In this document: positions 8,067 through 50,764 of the stretch, piece by piece | Numbering within the stretch: position 1 is the stretch's first letter | Layout of the letters: each line of letters starts with the position of its first letter | Assembly: GCA_945904015.1 (NCBI GenBank) | Contig: CAMDPK010000007.1 | Location: 1 to 64,000, forward strand | From: Candidatus Kuenenia stuttgartensis | Lineage (GTDB): Bacteria > Planctomycetota > Planctomycetia > Planctomycetales > Planctomycetaceae | Direction of reading: 5' to 3' | DNA: 64,000 nt | Made by a program: the position numbers and the translations under genes | Notes under the pieces: model-generated | What the model saw: the letters and a program-made list of their open reading frames with translations, nothing else | The model's database searches: none | Told to the model about the DNA's origin: nothing

Positions 8067-8117
8067 CCGGGCAGGAGATCGCCCATCAGCGTGAATCAAT
8101 CTCCGCGAGAATTCCTT

Positions 8118-44674: not shown

Positions 44675-45144
44675 AGGCTGCTTTTCGTTCTAAGCTAGCT
44701 ACGGGGGCGAGTGTCTGCACTGGCAAACCGGCGGCCGAACGGGAGGGATCAAATCGGTGGGAGCTTCTTGGATGGCCGAGTTTCGGCAGGGCATGGCGCT
44801 TTCCAAAATGGTGCCACGACTCGCCAAGCCAGCATAGCAGCACCGAGCACATGTGGTCAAAAACTAAGCCGCGTTGGAAACTCGTTGGCCAATCGAGTTT
44901 CACAGGAACAAACGATCGAGAACTGAGCCGGTCGTGACTGAAGTCAGTACGGGATCACGCTGAATGGGCGAAGTTGACCGTCGGTTATTCAGAAGTTGAC
45001 CGTTGGTTTTTCAACGGTTGCGCACGCGGTAAACAATGCCGTGATCTTGCGGCGAGACAAGCCTTGAGCCATCGACTGCTGATTCAAGCGGCTCTGCGGT
45101 GGCAGTAGTGCAGCAGGCCACCGAGTCGCTCGCCCTTGTCGTAG
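44675..45144. other. Non-coding stretch
   Basis: No convincing gene in about 470 nt. A small perfect hairpin (ACCGTTG, loop of 6, CAACGGT) lies at 44999-45018, and the 11-mer GAAGTTGACCG occurs twice just before it. The part nearest 44675 should contain the promoter of the cytochrome gene. Confidence 0.45.
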
Positions 45145-45345
45145 CTACGCCGCCTTCCGCTCAAACGACTGCACCAGACCGCCGACGTACGACCGGACTT
45201 CAATCTTGCCCCGCGACAACTTGCGAACCGCTTTTGGAGCGGTGGCAGGTGGTCCCGCTCCATCTGCGGCTTTGATGCCAAAGTCGTCACGGATACGGGT
45301 GGCAATGTTTTGGTGAAGCCAGTGCAGGTCATCTCGACCGTGCCC
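45145..45345 (-). pseudogene. C-terminal fragment of an unidentified gene
   Basis: A coding-like frame (DLHWLHQNIATRIRDDFGIK, ending SYVGGLVQSFERKAA) has no start codon and is closed upstream by TGA and TAA. It looks like the tail of a decayed gene. Confidence 0.4.
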
Positions 45346-45349
45346 TCAT

Positions 45350-45540
45350 GGCGGAGATTATTCAGACTCTTGCGGCCTCACTGAACACGACGCGACCCAG
45401 CGGAAAGAAGCGCTTACTCAGATTGCTCGTATTGAAGACATCATCACGCTCGTCGAGCGAGGACGACTGGAGATCCCTCCCGACGTCGATCCTGCTGACT
45501 TCATCGTTTCGGACGGACGCCTAACAAAGCCTCGCATGAC
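45350..45540 (+). pseudogene. Coding-like fragment, unidentified
   Basis: The plus frame reads as protein-like sequence (ARIEDIITLVERGRLEIPPD, then VDPADFIVSDGRLTKPR) without a good start. After about 45540 it runs on as antisense of the TPR pseudogene, so its real end is unclear. Function unknown. Confidence 0.3.
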
Positions 45541-46141
45541 GAGCGAACTTGTTCGCCTCAAAGAGTTGTTTGACGCCTTCGTGCGCTGCCGCCAACAAGT
45601 TACTTGCCTTCACCGAAGCTGCGGACATGTCTCGTTGAACGCCAGCGAGCGCCCGCCACGCTTCAACATCGTCGCGATCCGTCTGCACGGCGCGCGTCAG
45701 GATGATCTCTGCCTCGCGGAGACGGCCCTTTTTCCGAAGGTTGTCGGCCTGCATGAGAAGATCGGCTACTGTGACCACGGGGCCACCCGGAGGATCTGGG
45801 GTGTCCGGTCCGTTCGGTTGGGTCGTCGGAGCGGGTGGTATCCCGCGCAGCTTGTCGAGTTGGTGCCGCGCATCGTCGAACTGACGGCGTGCTTCGGCGA
45901 GCTGTTGGTGGAGATCATCTAGCTCACGGTGCGATTCATCGAGTTAGCGACGTGAGTCGTCAAGCTGCCGACGTGAGTCGTCAAGTAAGTTGCGAGCCGC
46001 GCTGGCCTCCCGGAACGCTACACCGGTCCAAATCCGCGCAGCACTGCCACCGACCGCCAAGAGGACAAGGGTCGCTGTTAAGACGGTTACGGCACCCCAG
46101 CGGTTTGCGGCGAGATTCGGCATAGTCGGTTCGTCGGTCAT
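45521..46141 (-). pseudogene. Membrane-anchored coiled-coil/TPR gene interrupted by an in-frame TAA
   Basis: The frame starts at the ATG at 46141 with a single membrane segment (GAVTVLTATLVLLAVGGSAA), then a heptad-like coiled coil of repeated LDDSRRQ units, a Pro-rich linker (GIPPAPTTQPNGPDTPDPPG) and a TPR-like pair of helices (ADLLMQADNLRKKGRLREAE and ILTRAVQTDRDDVEAWRALA). TAA at 45944-45946 occupies the position of the Gln (CAG) in the preceding repeat unit. Without it the product would be 206 residues. Either the gene is broken, or only a 65-residue membrane peptide is made. Confidence 0.75.
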
Positions 46142-46417
46142 GAGGTGGGGCTCCAAGGCAAGAAGTTCGCTGCACGCCGCTGTGTCGATCAGCTCAATGG
46201 CAACTTGGCAAATGAGGACATCGAATCTGCATCGCAGACACTCGCGCTGAATGTCACGTCGGCCAATCGGCAGCGACTTTGTATCACCGCCAGCGCCGTT
46301 GCCACCGAGCGATGCCTCATGCGACTTAAACGAGCGATCTCGATACCGAACTACGTCCGTCAGGAAGCGGTGATTGATGACCGCTTTCTGACGGTCGCGG
46401 CTCGGAAAGGATCTCGC

Positions 46418-46777
46418 TCACCAATCCGGGTTTCGCGTCAACTGTGCCGTTCGCAGGGCGTAGTCGATTTCGAGACGGTGCGGCTTGAGCATGTCGGTGC
46501 CGAGGAGACAAAGTTTGCCGGGGCCGACCAAGACGAGCACTTGAGTTGGTTCATCGAACCAGTTCACGACGACCACGAAACCCTCATAGCGGGCGATGTG
46601 TTCGTCAGCCAACTCGGCTTACATCGTGCCAACGGGAGTGCCGCAAGTGGGGTCGAATAATTCTTCGCCGACGATCAATGTGCCGGAGAAACCGGTGTCG
46701 ATTTGAAAATCGAGCGGCTGGCCACCGAGTTGAAACGTGAAGAAAGCTTGGTCGAGTTCATCCAGAAAGCCGTGCAT
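46418..46777 (-). pseudogene. Clan AA (retropepsin-like) aspartic protease gene interrupted by an in-frame TAA
   Basis: The frame from the ATG at 46777 gives a single-domain aspartic protease: FQIDTGFSGTLIV has the catalytic D-T-G-x-S-G, and LLGTDMLKPHRLEIDY has the second hydrophobic-hydrophobic-G motif. The length, 118 residues without the stop, is usual. TAA at 46619-46621, after VGTM, takes the place expected for a Gln before AELADEHIARYEG. The start overlaps the end of the upstream small gene (46758-47027), as is usual for this pair. Confidence 0.75.
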
Positions 46778-47027
46778 GGCGAACTGCTCCCCCAATTTTT
46801 ACGGCAGCGCCGCCACCCACTCGAAAAATGTGAACCAGTTTGGAACCAAACTTTCGTTCGCGCTCGGCTTCGAGTTCCCAAAGGTCTTTGCCGAGAACGT
46901 AGTCGCCCGAATCCGGTTCCACGGCAATGAGTTCACCGATATGGTCTGGTTCGAGGACGGCACTCCATCGCTCCGCGTAGGCTCGCTCGGCTCGCGACGC
47001 AAATTCGTCACGTTGAGTTTTTGTCAT
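46758..47027 (-). CDS. Small protein usually encoded ahead of a clan AA protease
   Basis: This 89-residue protein contains LEPDHIGELIAVEPDSGDYV followed by LGKDLWELEAERERK and FRVGGGAAVKIG. This pattern recurs in short proteins paired with retropepsin-like proteases in cyanobacteria and planctomycetes. The start is one of two adjacent ATG codons at 47030 and 47027, with GAGG upstream. It overlaps the broken protease gene by 20 nt. Function unknown; it may now be an orphan. Confidence 0.65.
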   Translation of the reverse strand: MTKTQRDEFASRAERAYAERWSAVLEPDHIGELIAVEPDSGDYVLGKDLWELEAERERKFGSKLVHIFRVGGGAAVKIGGAVRHARLSG

Positions 47028-47157
47028 CATGATCTGCCTCGATAGGTCGTGTGCCCGGTGAGTCTCAAACCGCAATCAGTCTCTTGACGAATGGTGAACT
47101 CATCAAGGCCAATCGGAAAAGGCGTTGCCCAAGTCCGCCCGTATCGCTCCAAAAGGG

Positions 47158-47208
47158 CGGGCAAGAACGCGTCAGAAGTCTTGCCCGTTTCGTCTGCCGA
47201 CTTCTGAC
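47158..47208. promoter_or_regulatory. Two overlapping, mutually exclusive hairpins
   Basis: CGGGCAAGA (47158-47166) pairs with TCTTGCCCG (47179-47187). GTCAGAAGTC (47171-47180) pairs with GACTTCTGAC (47199-47208). Both stems are perfect but share 47179-47180 and enclose each other's arms, so only one can form at a time. They lie in the gap between two divergent small genes. Confidence 0.6.
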
Positions 47209-47372
47209 AGTTCCAGCCTTTCAGTTAGGCCGCGATGATCCGTTCTCGCAACTCTGACGGAAGACCTGCTCGTATTGTACAAGTTGGATGAACTAGAAAA
47301 CGAACGAGCATAGGGCGATCTACTGCTGGAAGAGTTGAACCAACGGCTGGCGACCAGATAGGAGACGACGAG

Positions 47373-47614
47373 ATGACCAAGACGCTACGCGGCGCGATTC
47401 ATGGAAAGACCATCGAATTAGCGGATGCTCTTCCATTCGATGAAGGTGCTGAGGTTGAGATTCAAGTACGAGCGATTCGGCCAAGGCGAAAACCGGGCGA
47501 TGGTTCTTGCGCACGGAAGGCGCTTTGGCTGACGATACAGAATGGGACGCGATCATTGAGGAAGTCCAGCAAGGCAGAAAACTTGAACGGCGGCCGCAGT
47601 GGGAGGAGCAATGA
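47373..47614 (+). pseudogene. AbrB/DUF104-like antitoxin gene with a frameshift, toxin reduced to its start
   Basis: The start at 47373 has a good AGGAG. The first 43 or so residues read MTKTLRGAIHGKTIELADAL and on to VRAIRPRRKPGDG, an antitoxin-type beta strand domain. The natural continuation (FLRTEGALADDTEWDAIIEE, ending RRPQWEEQ) is in another frame, so about one base was lost near 47510. The stop overlaps an ATG (ATGA at 47611) with GGGAGGAG before it, where a toxin should start, but that frame stops after MIFLDQPQQ. The pair is dead. Confidence 0.65.
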
Positions 47615-47676
47615 TTTTCCTGGACCAACCGCAGCAGTGACCCGAACGTCAGCCCGTACAACGTCCATCCGGCTTG

Positions 47677-48117
47677 TCATCGTGACTTGGCTCGCCGTTT
47701 GGCAGTATCGACGACCTGAAACGACACTCGCTTGCCGAGCGCGTCGGCGTAGCGGTTGAGCGTGCCGATGGTGGGGTTCTGGTGTTGGCCGTTCTCCAGC
47801 CGGCAAATCGCCGCGCGGTCGATGCCGGTTCGCTCGGCCACGTCCGCCAGACTCAAGCCCGCGGCCTCTCGCAGTTGCTTGAGCCGCAGAACCGCCTTCC
47901 GCAAGTCCCAATACTCCGCCTGCGACATCGGCTCGGAGTAGTCGCCGCTGGCCAGCAACTCGGCCAGGCCCGGCTTCTCGTACTGCAAGCGTTTCCGCTT
48001 CGCCTGCTCGGCGGCGGCTTGCTCGGCCCGCCTTCGTCGGGTTGTCGCGGCCGATGAATTCGAGTGCGGCTGGTCATCGTTTCTTCCGAGCCGATGGCTC
48101 CGGCGCGTCTGTTGCAT
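47677..48117 (-). CDS. XRE-family HTH regulator
   Basis: This 146-residue protein has a clear XRE helix-turn-helix in its C-terminal half: LKQLREAAGLSLADVAERTG then DRAAICRLENGQHQNPTIGT and LNRYADALGKRVSF. The N-terminal half is Arg/Ala/Gln-rich and helical. The true start may lie downstream of the ATG at 48117. It is convergent with the antitoxin remnant. Its targets are unknown, and it could be the antitoxin of a lost toxin. Confidence 0.75.
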   Translation of the reverse strand: MQQTRRSHRLGRNDDQPHSNSSAATTRRRRAEQAAAEQAKRKRLQYEKPGLAELLASGDYSEPMSQAEYWDLRKAVLRLKQLREAAGLSLADVAERTGIDRAAICRLENGQHQNPTIGTLNRYADALGKRVSFQVVDTAKRRAKSR

Positions 48118-48180
48118 TCTTCAACAACAATCGTCGCCGGTCAAACAGACGCACGGAACCAACTCTCTCACGAGCCGCCG

Positions 48181-48345
48181 TCACTTCGCCCGCGCCGACT
48201 CCACGAGCATCCGAATCGTCGCCCGAAGATGCTCCGGCAACGTCGGCCAAGCCTCAACCAGCCGGCACAAGTCAGCATCTTTTCTGGTCGATTCCGGTAA
48301 GCCGGCTGGTAGGACACTCGGCACGGAGGATTCGGAACTGGTGCC
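48181..48345 (-). pseudogene. Gene-tail remnant, copy 1
   Basis: A frame closed upstream by TAG encodes VPSVLPAGLPESTRKDADLC followed by RLVEAWPTLPEHLRATIRML and VESARAK. It has no start. The WPTLP-type ending is typical of C-terminal tails of planctomycete recombinases and regulators, but the parent gene is not certain. It is related to copy 2 at 48836-49024. Confidence 0.55.
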
Positions 48346-48367
48346 CTAGTCTGTTGATGCTGGCCGG

Positions 48368-48652
48368 TCAGTGTTGTTTTCGTTTCGTGCTGCCCGTGAC
48401 TTTGCCTTTTCGCGGCTTCTCGGTTTTCTTGCCTCGACTGCGCCGAACGAAGTGGAGAATGACGAGCACGATACCCACGACCCAGCCGAGCGCCACGCCG
48501 ATACCGCGTCCAAGTAGCTCGGCCCGATTCTTCGCGGGCTGCATCGTCATAATCAATCCCGTGAATCCGCTGGCAAACATGCAGAGTCCTCCCCAATGGA
48601 GGAGCGTGAACTGGCGCATTCTGTCGCGAAACGATTCCTCGTTCTTTGGCAT
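48368..48652 (-). CDS. Small two-helix membrane protein
   Basis: This 94-residue protein has two hydrophobic helices (GGLCMFASGFTGLIMTM and GIGVALGWVVGIVLVILHFV) and a strongly basic tail (RRSRGKKTEKPRKGKVTGS). A GGGAGAG ribosome-binding site precedes the ATG at 48652. Positive residues at the C-terminus suggest both ends are cytoplasmic. No family recognised. It sits between the two related gene tails. Confidence 0.65.
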   Translation of the reverse strand: MPKNEESFRDRMRQFTLLHWGGLCMFASGFTGLIMTMQPAKNRAELLGRGIGVALGWVVGIVLVILHFVRRSRGKKTEKPRKGKVTGSTKRKQH

Positions 48653-48835
48653 CTCAAGCTCTCCCGGTGTTGGAAGTCACGGTCGCTCTGAAGCACCGCA
48701 AAATCAAAACCCCGAACCAGCCGAAACCGATCCGGGGCCGCTTCGCCGATTCGGCGTCGGTGAGGACGCCGATGTCGGCTAGGCGACAACAGCCTATCGC
48801 GCTGTGGACTGGTTTACCCGCCAATCACCTCGCCG

Positions 48836-49024
48836 TCACTTCGGACGAGACGACTCCACGAGCATCCGAATCGTCGCCCGAACATGCTCCGGCAACATCG
48901 GCCAAGCCTCGACCAACAGCATCAGCGCGGGGTCGGATGGCTCGTCTTACCTACCGTCTGACGACTGCCAATCGGTGTTTTGCCGAGCCGTTTCCTGTAA
49001 GCCGGCCTGTAAGACGCTCGGCAC
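48836..49024 (-). pseudogene. Gene-tail remnant, copy 2, with an in-frame TAA
   Basis: The frame encodes VPSVLQAGLQETARQNTDWQ and, after TAA at 48947-48949, DEPSDPALMLLVEAWPMLPE then HVRATIRMLVESSRPK. It is clearly related to copy 1. The TAA falls after DGR, a point where Gln would fit. The frame is open further upstream but crosses the tRNA-Ser remnant, so the parent gene start is unknown. Confidence 0.55.
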
Positions 49025-49042: not shown

Positions 49043-49131
49043 CGCATCAGACTGGTTGCGACATTCGCCGTCTGGTCTCGAAAACCAGTGTACCCGCAAG
49101 GTTACCGAGGGTTCGAATACCTCCCTCTCCG
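49043..49131 (+). pseudogene. Decayed tRNA-Ser (anticodon CGA)
   Basis: The anticodon arm CTGGT-CTCGAAA-ACCAG (49072-49088) with CGA is intact, a serine-type long variable arm follows, then GAGGG-TTCGAAT-ACCTC (with a G-A pair at the loop base) and the acceptor 3' half CCTCTCC plus G. The matching 5' acceptor GGAGAGG is absent and the D arm is degraded, so it is likely non-functional. tRNA 3' ends are common integration sites. Confidence 0.6.
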
Positions 49132-49423
49132 CTTTGAAGTTTTGATGCGTGCCGCACTCAATCGAGTGTGGGTTGTTTTTCTCTGAGAGCTCGGTGCTGG
49201 TGCATTTCTGGTGTTTGGGGTGTCTTGGGTGTGACACCGCTTTTCGGATCTCGTCCGATTTTGAATGAGGCTGGGGGAGCGGCCAACATCAAGCATCCGA
49301 TCGCTGCAAGGTCGTCTGGAAATCCTCGCGGATTCTGGAGTTGCTCACCCCGCAGCACCCAAGTTCGTGGACTCCGGGTTGTCGACGAGGCATGAAGATC
49401 GGGTGAATCGACTCGACCTGAGC

Positions 49424-50764
49424 CTAGCCCAAGACCATTCGCGCGACGCTGTAGTAGATCACTCCGCCACTGATATCGACCAGGGCGGCGATCAGCGGAT
49501 TGGACATCATGGCCGGGTCCATGCCGAGTTTCTTGAACGCCAACGGCAGTAACGTTCCTGCCATCGAACCCATCCAAACCAGCATGAAGACCGTCATCGC
49601 GACGACCATCGCCTTCGACGGATGTTCGAGGAACATCGCTAACAAGAATGCCTCGACCATCAGAGCTAGGCCGAGCAGCGTGGCCATCAACAGCTCGCGG
49701 CCCAGCAGCCGGATGCAATCCTTTCGCGTGAGCGTTTCGATCGTCAACGCGCGGATCACCAGCGTCGCCGATTGCGATCCGCTGTTGCCGCCGCTGGCCA
49801 GCACGAGCGGCAGGAACGCGACGGCCCATTCCGCTTCGGTGGCATTTGGTCGAAAATGCTTGAGCGCGGTCGCCGACAAAAAGCCGGTCGCCAACAGCCC
49901 GACTAGCCACACGCCGCGCTTCCAGAGGATTTGCATCACTGGGGTGGCGAGGTAACTGTCTTCGAGAGGTGACATGGCACCCGCGCGGTACACGTCTTCG
50001 GTCGCCTCTTCTTGCAACACGTCGATCACGTCGTCGTGCGTGATGATGCCGACTAATCGGTTCTGGTTGTCAGTGACGGGGATCGCGAGGAAGTCGTACT
50101 TCGCCATGACTTGAGCGACTTTTTCCTGATCATCATCGACGCGAACGGCGAAGACGTCTCGCTCCATGATTTCGTCCAGCTTCGCGTTCGGCCGCGCGAG
50201 AATCAGCGTGCGCAGGGTCACGAAGCCGTCGAGTTTTCGGTCGTCATCCAGAATGTAGATGTAGTAAATCGTCTCGCGATCGGGAGCCTGTCGGCGAAGT
50301 TGATCGAGAGCCTCGGCGACAGTGATGTGCTCCGGCAGCGAGGCGTAGTCGGTCGTCATAATCGACCCGGCGCTGCCGTCGGGATACGACAGCAGACGGC
50401 GAATATCGTTGCGCTCGGCCTGGGCCATCAACGGCAGCAGAGCATCGACGTGGTCCGGGTCCATTTCTTTGAGCAGGTCCACTCGATCGTCGGGAGCCAT
50501 CGTCTCGATCAGCTTCGAGAGATGCGGGCGTTCGACGCTTTCGACTAACTGCATCTGCCGAGCCGGCTCGAAGTAACCGAAGATTTCCGCTTGCTTCTCG
50601 AACGACGCACTGGCGAGAACCGACCAAACCTCGGCTGGCGTGACCTGATTCAACACTTCGGAGGACGTGGCGGGATGCAGCGCATCGAGAAACTCGCGCA
50701 GCCCGGCGGAGTCGTTGAGTTGGAGCAACTCACGCAGTTCGGGAAGCAGCAGTTGTCCGAGCAT
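49424..50764 (-). CDS. mgtE: Magnesium transporter MgtE
   Basis: This 446-residue protein has the full MgtE layout: N-terminal helical superfamily domain (about residues 1-130), two CBS domains (about 135-255, with MTTDYASLPEHITVAEAL and ERDVFAVRVDDDQEKVAQVM), the plug helix and five membrane helices (about 280-445). The conserved PLVLASGGNSGSQSATLVIR and the C-terminal NPLIAALVDISGGVIYY supply the Mg2+ pore. It takes up Mg2+ under control of its CBS sensor. The 3' intergenic stretch (49132-49423) shows no gene. Confidence 0.96.
   Translation of the reverse strand: MLGQLLLPELRELLQLNDSAGLREFLDALHPATSSEVLNQVTPAEVWSVLASASFEKQAEIFGYFEPARQMQLVESVERPHLSKLIETMAPDDRVDLLKEMDPDHVDALLPLMAQAERNDIRRLLSYPDGSAGSIMTTDYASLPEHITVAEALDQLRRQAPDRETIYYIYILDDDRKLDGFVTLRTLILARPNAKLDEIMERDVFAVRVDDDQEKVAQVMAKYDFLAIPVTDNQNRLVGIITHDDVIDVLQEEATEDVYRAGAMSPLEDSYLATPVMQILWKRGVWLVGLLATGFLSATALKHFRPNATEAEWAVAFLPLVLASGGNSGSQSATLVIRALTIETLTRKDCIRLLGRELLMATLLGLALMVEAFLLAMFLEHPSKAMVVAMTVFMLVWMGSMAGTLLPLAFKKLGMDPAMMSNPLIAALVDISGGVIYYSVARMVLG

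Follow-up and report, generated by a model that had tools for sequence, protein, structure and literature searches.

Three neighboring frames in the window (the whole 64,000-nucleotide stretch of DNA analyzed) are each interrupted by a single TAA codon, and the locus raises the question of whether these codons are translated, share a mutational origin, or are simply damage in genes that have ceased to function. A first-pass annotation had suggested that glutamine would fit at each position and that the clustering reflects local C-to-T decay or a special readthrough context. The three in-frame codons were borne out, all on the minus strand, as were the bases that follow them: CTC in the tetratricopeptide (TPR) frame, GCC in the protease frame, and GAC in the tail frame. 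Their explanation is a different one. The region from 45.0 to 49.1 kb is, with high probability, a decaying remnant of at least one integrated mobile element in which the TAA codons are plain lesions, the third lying in the tail of a tyrosine integrase that was left at a tRNA-Ser(CGA) attachment site, presumably by an integrase gene running through attP. The features are as follows.

45521 to 46141, minus strand: TPR or coiled-coil frame with one TAA (45944-45946); TPR_14 match, E value 2e-4, below the curated cutoff
46418 to 46777, minus strand: retropepsin-like (gag-asp type) aspartic protease frame with one TAA (46619-46621)
46758 to 47075, minus strand: open frame, partner gene directly upstream of the protease; no Pfam family over the cutoff
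47373 to 47618, plus strand: small gene lacking one base of its copy in genome G006, which is intact (80 aa)
47677 to 48117, minus strand: HTH_31/HTH_3 DNA-binding gene; open, and common to the islands of genomes G005 and G006
48184 to 48324, minus strand: further copy of the integrase tail, truncated, found in the tail search
48839 to 49024, minus strand: C-terminal end of a tyrosine integrase gene, detached from the rest (Int tail), with TAA at 48947-48949
49072 to 49134, plus strand: decayed 3' piece of tRNA-Ser(CGA), 63 nt, the scar of an attachment site; contig C238 carries the complete gene
49424 to 50764, minus strand: conserved chromosomal transporter gene bordering the island, which we take to be MgtE-like

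Origin of the three TAA codons

Clustering of TAA codons had been singled out as special, and simulation does not uphold this. Between positions 45001 and 49200, a run of >35 open codons lies on both sides of 29 stops (17 TGA, 6 TAA, and 6 TAG), and 300 first-order Markov simulations gave an expectation of 32.3 ± 5.3 such stops in all and 5.5 TAA. A further broken frame is present at 47045-47340 on the minus strand, with one TAA at 47227 (...RERIIAA*LKGWNCQK...); by eye it is transposase-like or HTH-like.

The suggestion that glutamine would fit holds for the TPR frame only, and there by its internal heptad repeats. The heptads beside the TAA carry Gln or Glu, so that both CAA and GAA are possible ancestral codons. 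A search of 12 genomes of the genus provided no usable relative of this frame, returning its own copy and a weak match (E value 3e-4) over residues 46 to 96. The protease frame, which contains the DTG motif but matches gag-asp_proteas below the cutoff (E value 0.0026), was found at 24 places in the genus, and the window copy was aligned with 12 of the 23 others. The genome itself holds three paralogs (contigs C3, C134, and C249) that are open throughout. At the column of the stop, the 12 relatives and paralogs have GAT (five), GAG (three), ATC, AGA, CGT, and AAT (one each), encoding Asp, Glu, Ile, Arg, and Asn, and Gln is found in none of them. In the tail frame, the nearest relative (G005, 88% identity over 285 bases) has Asn (AAT) where the window has TAA.

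Local C-to-T decay, by which three Gln CAA codons would have become TAA, is consistent with the TPR heptads, which carry CAG or CAA at most equivalent positions, but is already contradicted for two of the three codons by the protease column and the tail relative. The substitutions point the same way: among 271 informative columns of the HTH gene, compared with G005, G006, and three outgroups, five substitutions fall on the branch of this genome, of which, in this small sample, C>T or G>A accounts for one and T>C for two. A frameshift and a deletion are present as well: one base is missing from the small gene at 47373, and the gene that follows it in G006 is absent here through a deletion of >400 bases. 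These two genes are presumably antitoxin-like and PIN-like, respectively. Decay therefore stands as part of the earlier proposal and its C-to-T component does not; a common C-to-T origin of all three codons is highly improbable.

A second possibility is decoding of TAA as Gln, or its readthrough, either throughout this organism or in this context. The frames do continue on either side of each TAA, but a genome-wide check for in-frame stops found none in 101 domain matches of this genome (70 ABC_tran, 27 Phage_integrase, and 4 DDE_Tnp_1), by which both reassignment of TAA to Gln and a special readthrough context were rejected. TAA also terminates 6 of the window's 32 long nonoverlapping stop-to-stop frames. 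A pattern for tRNAs with a TTA anticodon, a limited test for a suppressor, matched three places, none of which was called as such by ARAGORN. Translation through these codons is thus scarcely conceivable.

Sequencing or assembly errors might be expected in a fragmented draft of 286 contigs, which this genome is. The lesions are nevertheless of several kinds rather than single-base differences, including the deletion of >400 bases and a truncated tRNA copy that is shared with G005, and the domain matches elsewhere in the genome are free of stops, making such errors a very unlikely cause. Each TAA is best explained as a separate lesion, in a frame on which selection no longer acts; none is read through, and at least two did not arise from Gln codons.

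Limits of the island and the tRNA-Ser scar

The frame interrupted by the third TAA runs from 49237 to 48839 on the minus strand and is antisense to the tRNA-Ser(CGA) piece over 49072-49134. This piece covers the anticodon arm to the 3' end, its 5' part having been replaced, and ARAGORN called no tRNA there. Rfam returned only two weak matches, one of which is the antisense of the tRNA piece. In G005, the same junction is found, with the 5' part of the tRNA replaced by related foreign sequence. With only the 3' piece of the tRNA remaining, the complete gene on another contig, and the junction recurring in G005, positions 49072-49134 bear the mark of an attachment site. In G005 (contig C264, 3208-4632; locus L045), approximately 75 bases past the 3' piece of tRNA-Ser is the start of a second, different integrase gene, which points away from this piece.

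A displaced tRNA 3' fragment thus borders the element, as in tRNA-island scars. At the other end, no complete tRNA accompanied by an integrase was found, the only tRNA genes being a tRNA-Leu at 8117 of the window and a tRNA-Pro further along the contig, and no integrase was found in the island. The integrase beside the complete tRNA-Ser on contig C238 was considered as the partner of the window tail and rejected, as its frame stops before the core. For this reason the interpretation of the window depends on relatives, the island having neither an integrase nor, at its other end, a complete tRNA.

An empty site was sought in the downstream flanks of the transporter gene in ten relatives. Homology ended at the stop codon of this gene in all ten, and the limits of the island therefore cannot be set from their flanks. 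The region from 45.0 to 49.1 kb is an eroding island that is not shared at this place with those ten relatives.

Repeated sequences are also present. Positions 45003-45267 and 46166-46310 match many scattered places in the genomes of the genus and are probably interspersed repeats. An imperfect inverted repeat of about 65 bases at 46339-46406 resembles a small mobile palindrome, and ten further occurrences of the sequence around 46341-46420 were found in 5 of the 21 genomes searched (G000, which is the genome of the window, and G005, G006, G007, and G010).

Integrase, core, and tail in relatives

Thirty tails situated in large contigs were each followed over 40 kb downstream. Ten had been picked by hand first and 20 were taken roughly by E value, skipping contig edges and frames already fused; G052_3191 and G054_5663, in which integrase and tail already form one frame, are outside the 30. 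For 12 of the tails, a direct repeat of the pre-tail sequence was found 9 to 39 kb away together with a tyrosine integrase frame on the same strand, and in all 12 the integrase frame runs into the repeat. Nine of these repeats lie within a complete tRNA that is encoded on the opposite strand (Arg and Lys, two each; Glu, Leu, Phe, Ser, and Cys, one each), and three cores lie outside any tRNA. The remaining 18 tails had no repeat plus integrase, although 3 of them had the repeat and a complete antisense tRNA, with no integrase found by six queries.

When the two ends were joined at the repeat, an open frame consisting of integrase, core, and tail was obtained in 10 of the 12 cases (the exceptions being G046_935 and G026_1891), compared with about one-third at most for a random frame. 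Among 870 mismatched pairs of tail and far end, a repeat with an integrase was found in 13, with the tail in frame in 7 of these. In the open joined frames and in natural fusions, the attachment core accordingly lies in frame within the integrase gene, past the part for the catalytic domain. The Phage_integrase domain ends before the core, and separation of the catalytic domain by integration, as in SSV-type elements, was not found.

The tail could instead be an independent small gene that resides beside tRNA attachment sites and is separate from the integrase. Many loci do have the tail in its own short frame, but the upstream frame in many of them is antisense tRNA rather than a start region. 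The open joined frames and the existence of natural integrase-tail fusions also argue against an independent gene, which is unlikely. The tail is better regarded as the cast-off end of the integrase.

Conservation of the tail across Planctomycetia

The tail search found the short conserved tail, with its W-P-x-L-P motif, in 117 of 198 genomes of the Planctomycetia, which, judging from named relatives, we take to be the class of the window. The tail reads roughly D-x-x-L-x-x-L-V-x-A-W-P-x-L-P-x-x-x-R-x-x-I-x-x-L-V. Peptides resembling translated tRNA precede it and vary from locus to locus. An exact antisense T-arm motif occurred ≤240 nt upstream of the tail at 22 of 35 loci, and controls gave 0 of 32 downstream, none far upstream, and 1 of 35 for the opposite strand. 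In the contig search, most matches cover only the tRNA-antisense part of the query. Comparison of the tail with 50,697 phage records gave no match above noise, and plasmids likewise gave nothing beyond noise.

Three loci (L092, L096, and L099, the last cut at its start) naturally contain a Phage_integrase domain, an antisense tRNA peptide, and the tail in one frame, and a fourth (L090) has integrase and tail without the tRNA peptide. Tails without the tRNA signature occur, e.g., at L090, L085, and L098; the last two (G163:C130 and G191:C264) are ion-channel-like frames ending in a weaker version of the motif. At L083 (G114:C1, 3273765), the tail and the tRNA-Met that precedes it share a strand, in contrast to the antisense arrangement elsewhere.

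Proposed mechanism and significance

In these elements the integrase gene most probably runs through attP: the catalytic domain comes first, followed by the core, which is the 3' end of the tRNA in antisense, and last by a conserved tail some 30 residues long. In the circular form, the integrase would carry the tail. Integration at the core would leave the catalytic part at one end of the element, now ending inside the antisense strand of the tRNA, and would place the tail beyond the other core copy at the opposite end, where it would have no start. A stop such as the TAA at 48947 costs nothing in a detached tail, which lacks any start. The joined frame is predicted to be translated in the circular form, the tail may affect or steer recombination, and the element of the window itself may once have worked by a detachable tail.

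More tentatively, and with more doubt than conviction, the detachable tail could be a built-in switch. The circle would make a tailed integrase, whereas integration would yield a tail-less integrase ending in an antisense-tRNA peptide, with the tail parked at the other junction. The W-P-x-L-P tail would then set the direction of recombination without a separate factor and could pass between elements sharing a tRNA target.

The stop codons themselves are ordinary. One of them, however, lies in a cast-off integrase tail and so draws attention to a group of mobile elements, widespread in planctomycetes, whose insertion into a tRNA gene severs the end of their own integrase gene. The arrangement occurs widely within a bacterial class and at many tRNA targets, and because of the shared tail its role can be tested. 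It also provides a simple rule for finding element ends in Planctomycetes: a tail after an antisense tRNA 3' end.

Comparison with known systems

No report of an attP-spanning integrase with a detachable tail in Planctomycetes was found in the openly licensed papers searched. Islands borne by tRNA genes (Islander type) have a complete tRNA at one end, a displaced fragment at the other, and a tyrosine integrase (PMC4383910). The planctomycete elements share all three features; extension of the integrase across attP is treated in PMC4383910 as an exception, described for Mx8 and SSV.

In the “suicidal” archaeal integrases of the SSV1 type, attP lies in the gene, which is parted by integration, and self-disrupting recombinases are considered exclusively archaeal in a review (PMC8371274). 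In the SSV1 type, the catalytic domain is split off and the gene inactivated, whereas the planctomycete cut falls downstream of the Phage_integrase domain. Streptococcal integrative and conjugative elements (ICEs) in rumA resemble the planctomycete elements in having the att site within the integrase gene and a C terminus that differs in the excised state (PMC4701971); however, the enzyme is a serine integrase and the target a protein gene.

The closest parallel is the integrase of Mx8 (and Mx9), in which attP lies inside the coding sequence and integration provides a new 3' end and, for Mx8, changes integrase activity (PMC6070905 and PMC4701971). The planctomycete integrase gene likewise spans attP, and its C terminus is swapped on integration. 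It differs from Mx8 in extending to a whole bacterial class, in its many tRNA targets, and in the short tail motif shared after the core. We therefore rate the planctomycete arrangement as a variant, distinguished by its shared tail, of a principle already known from Mx8.
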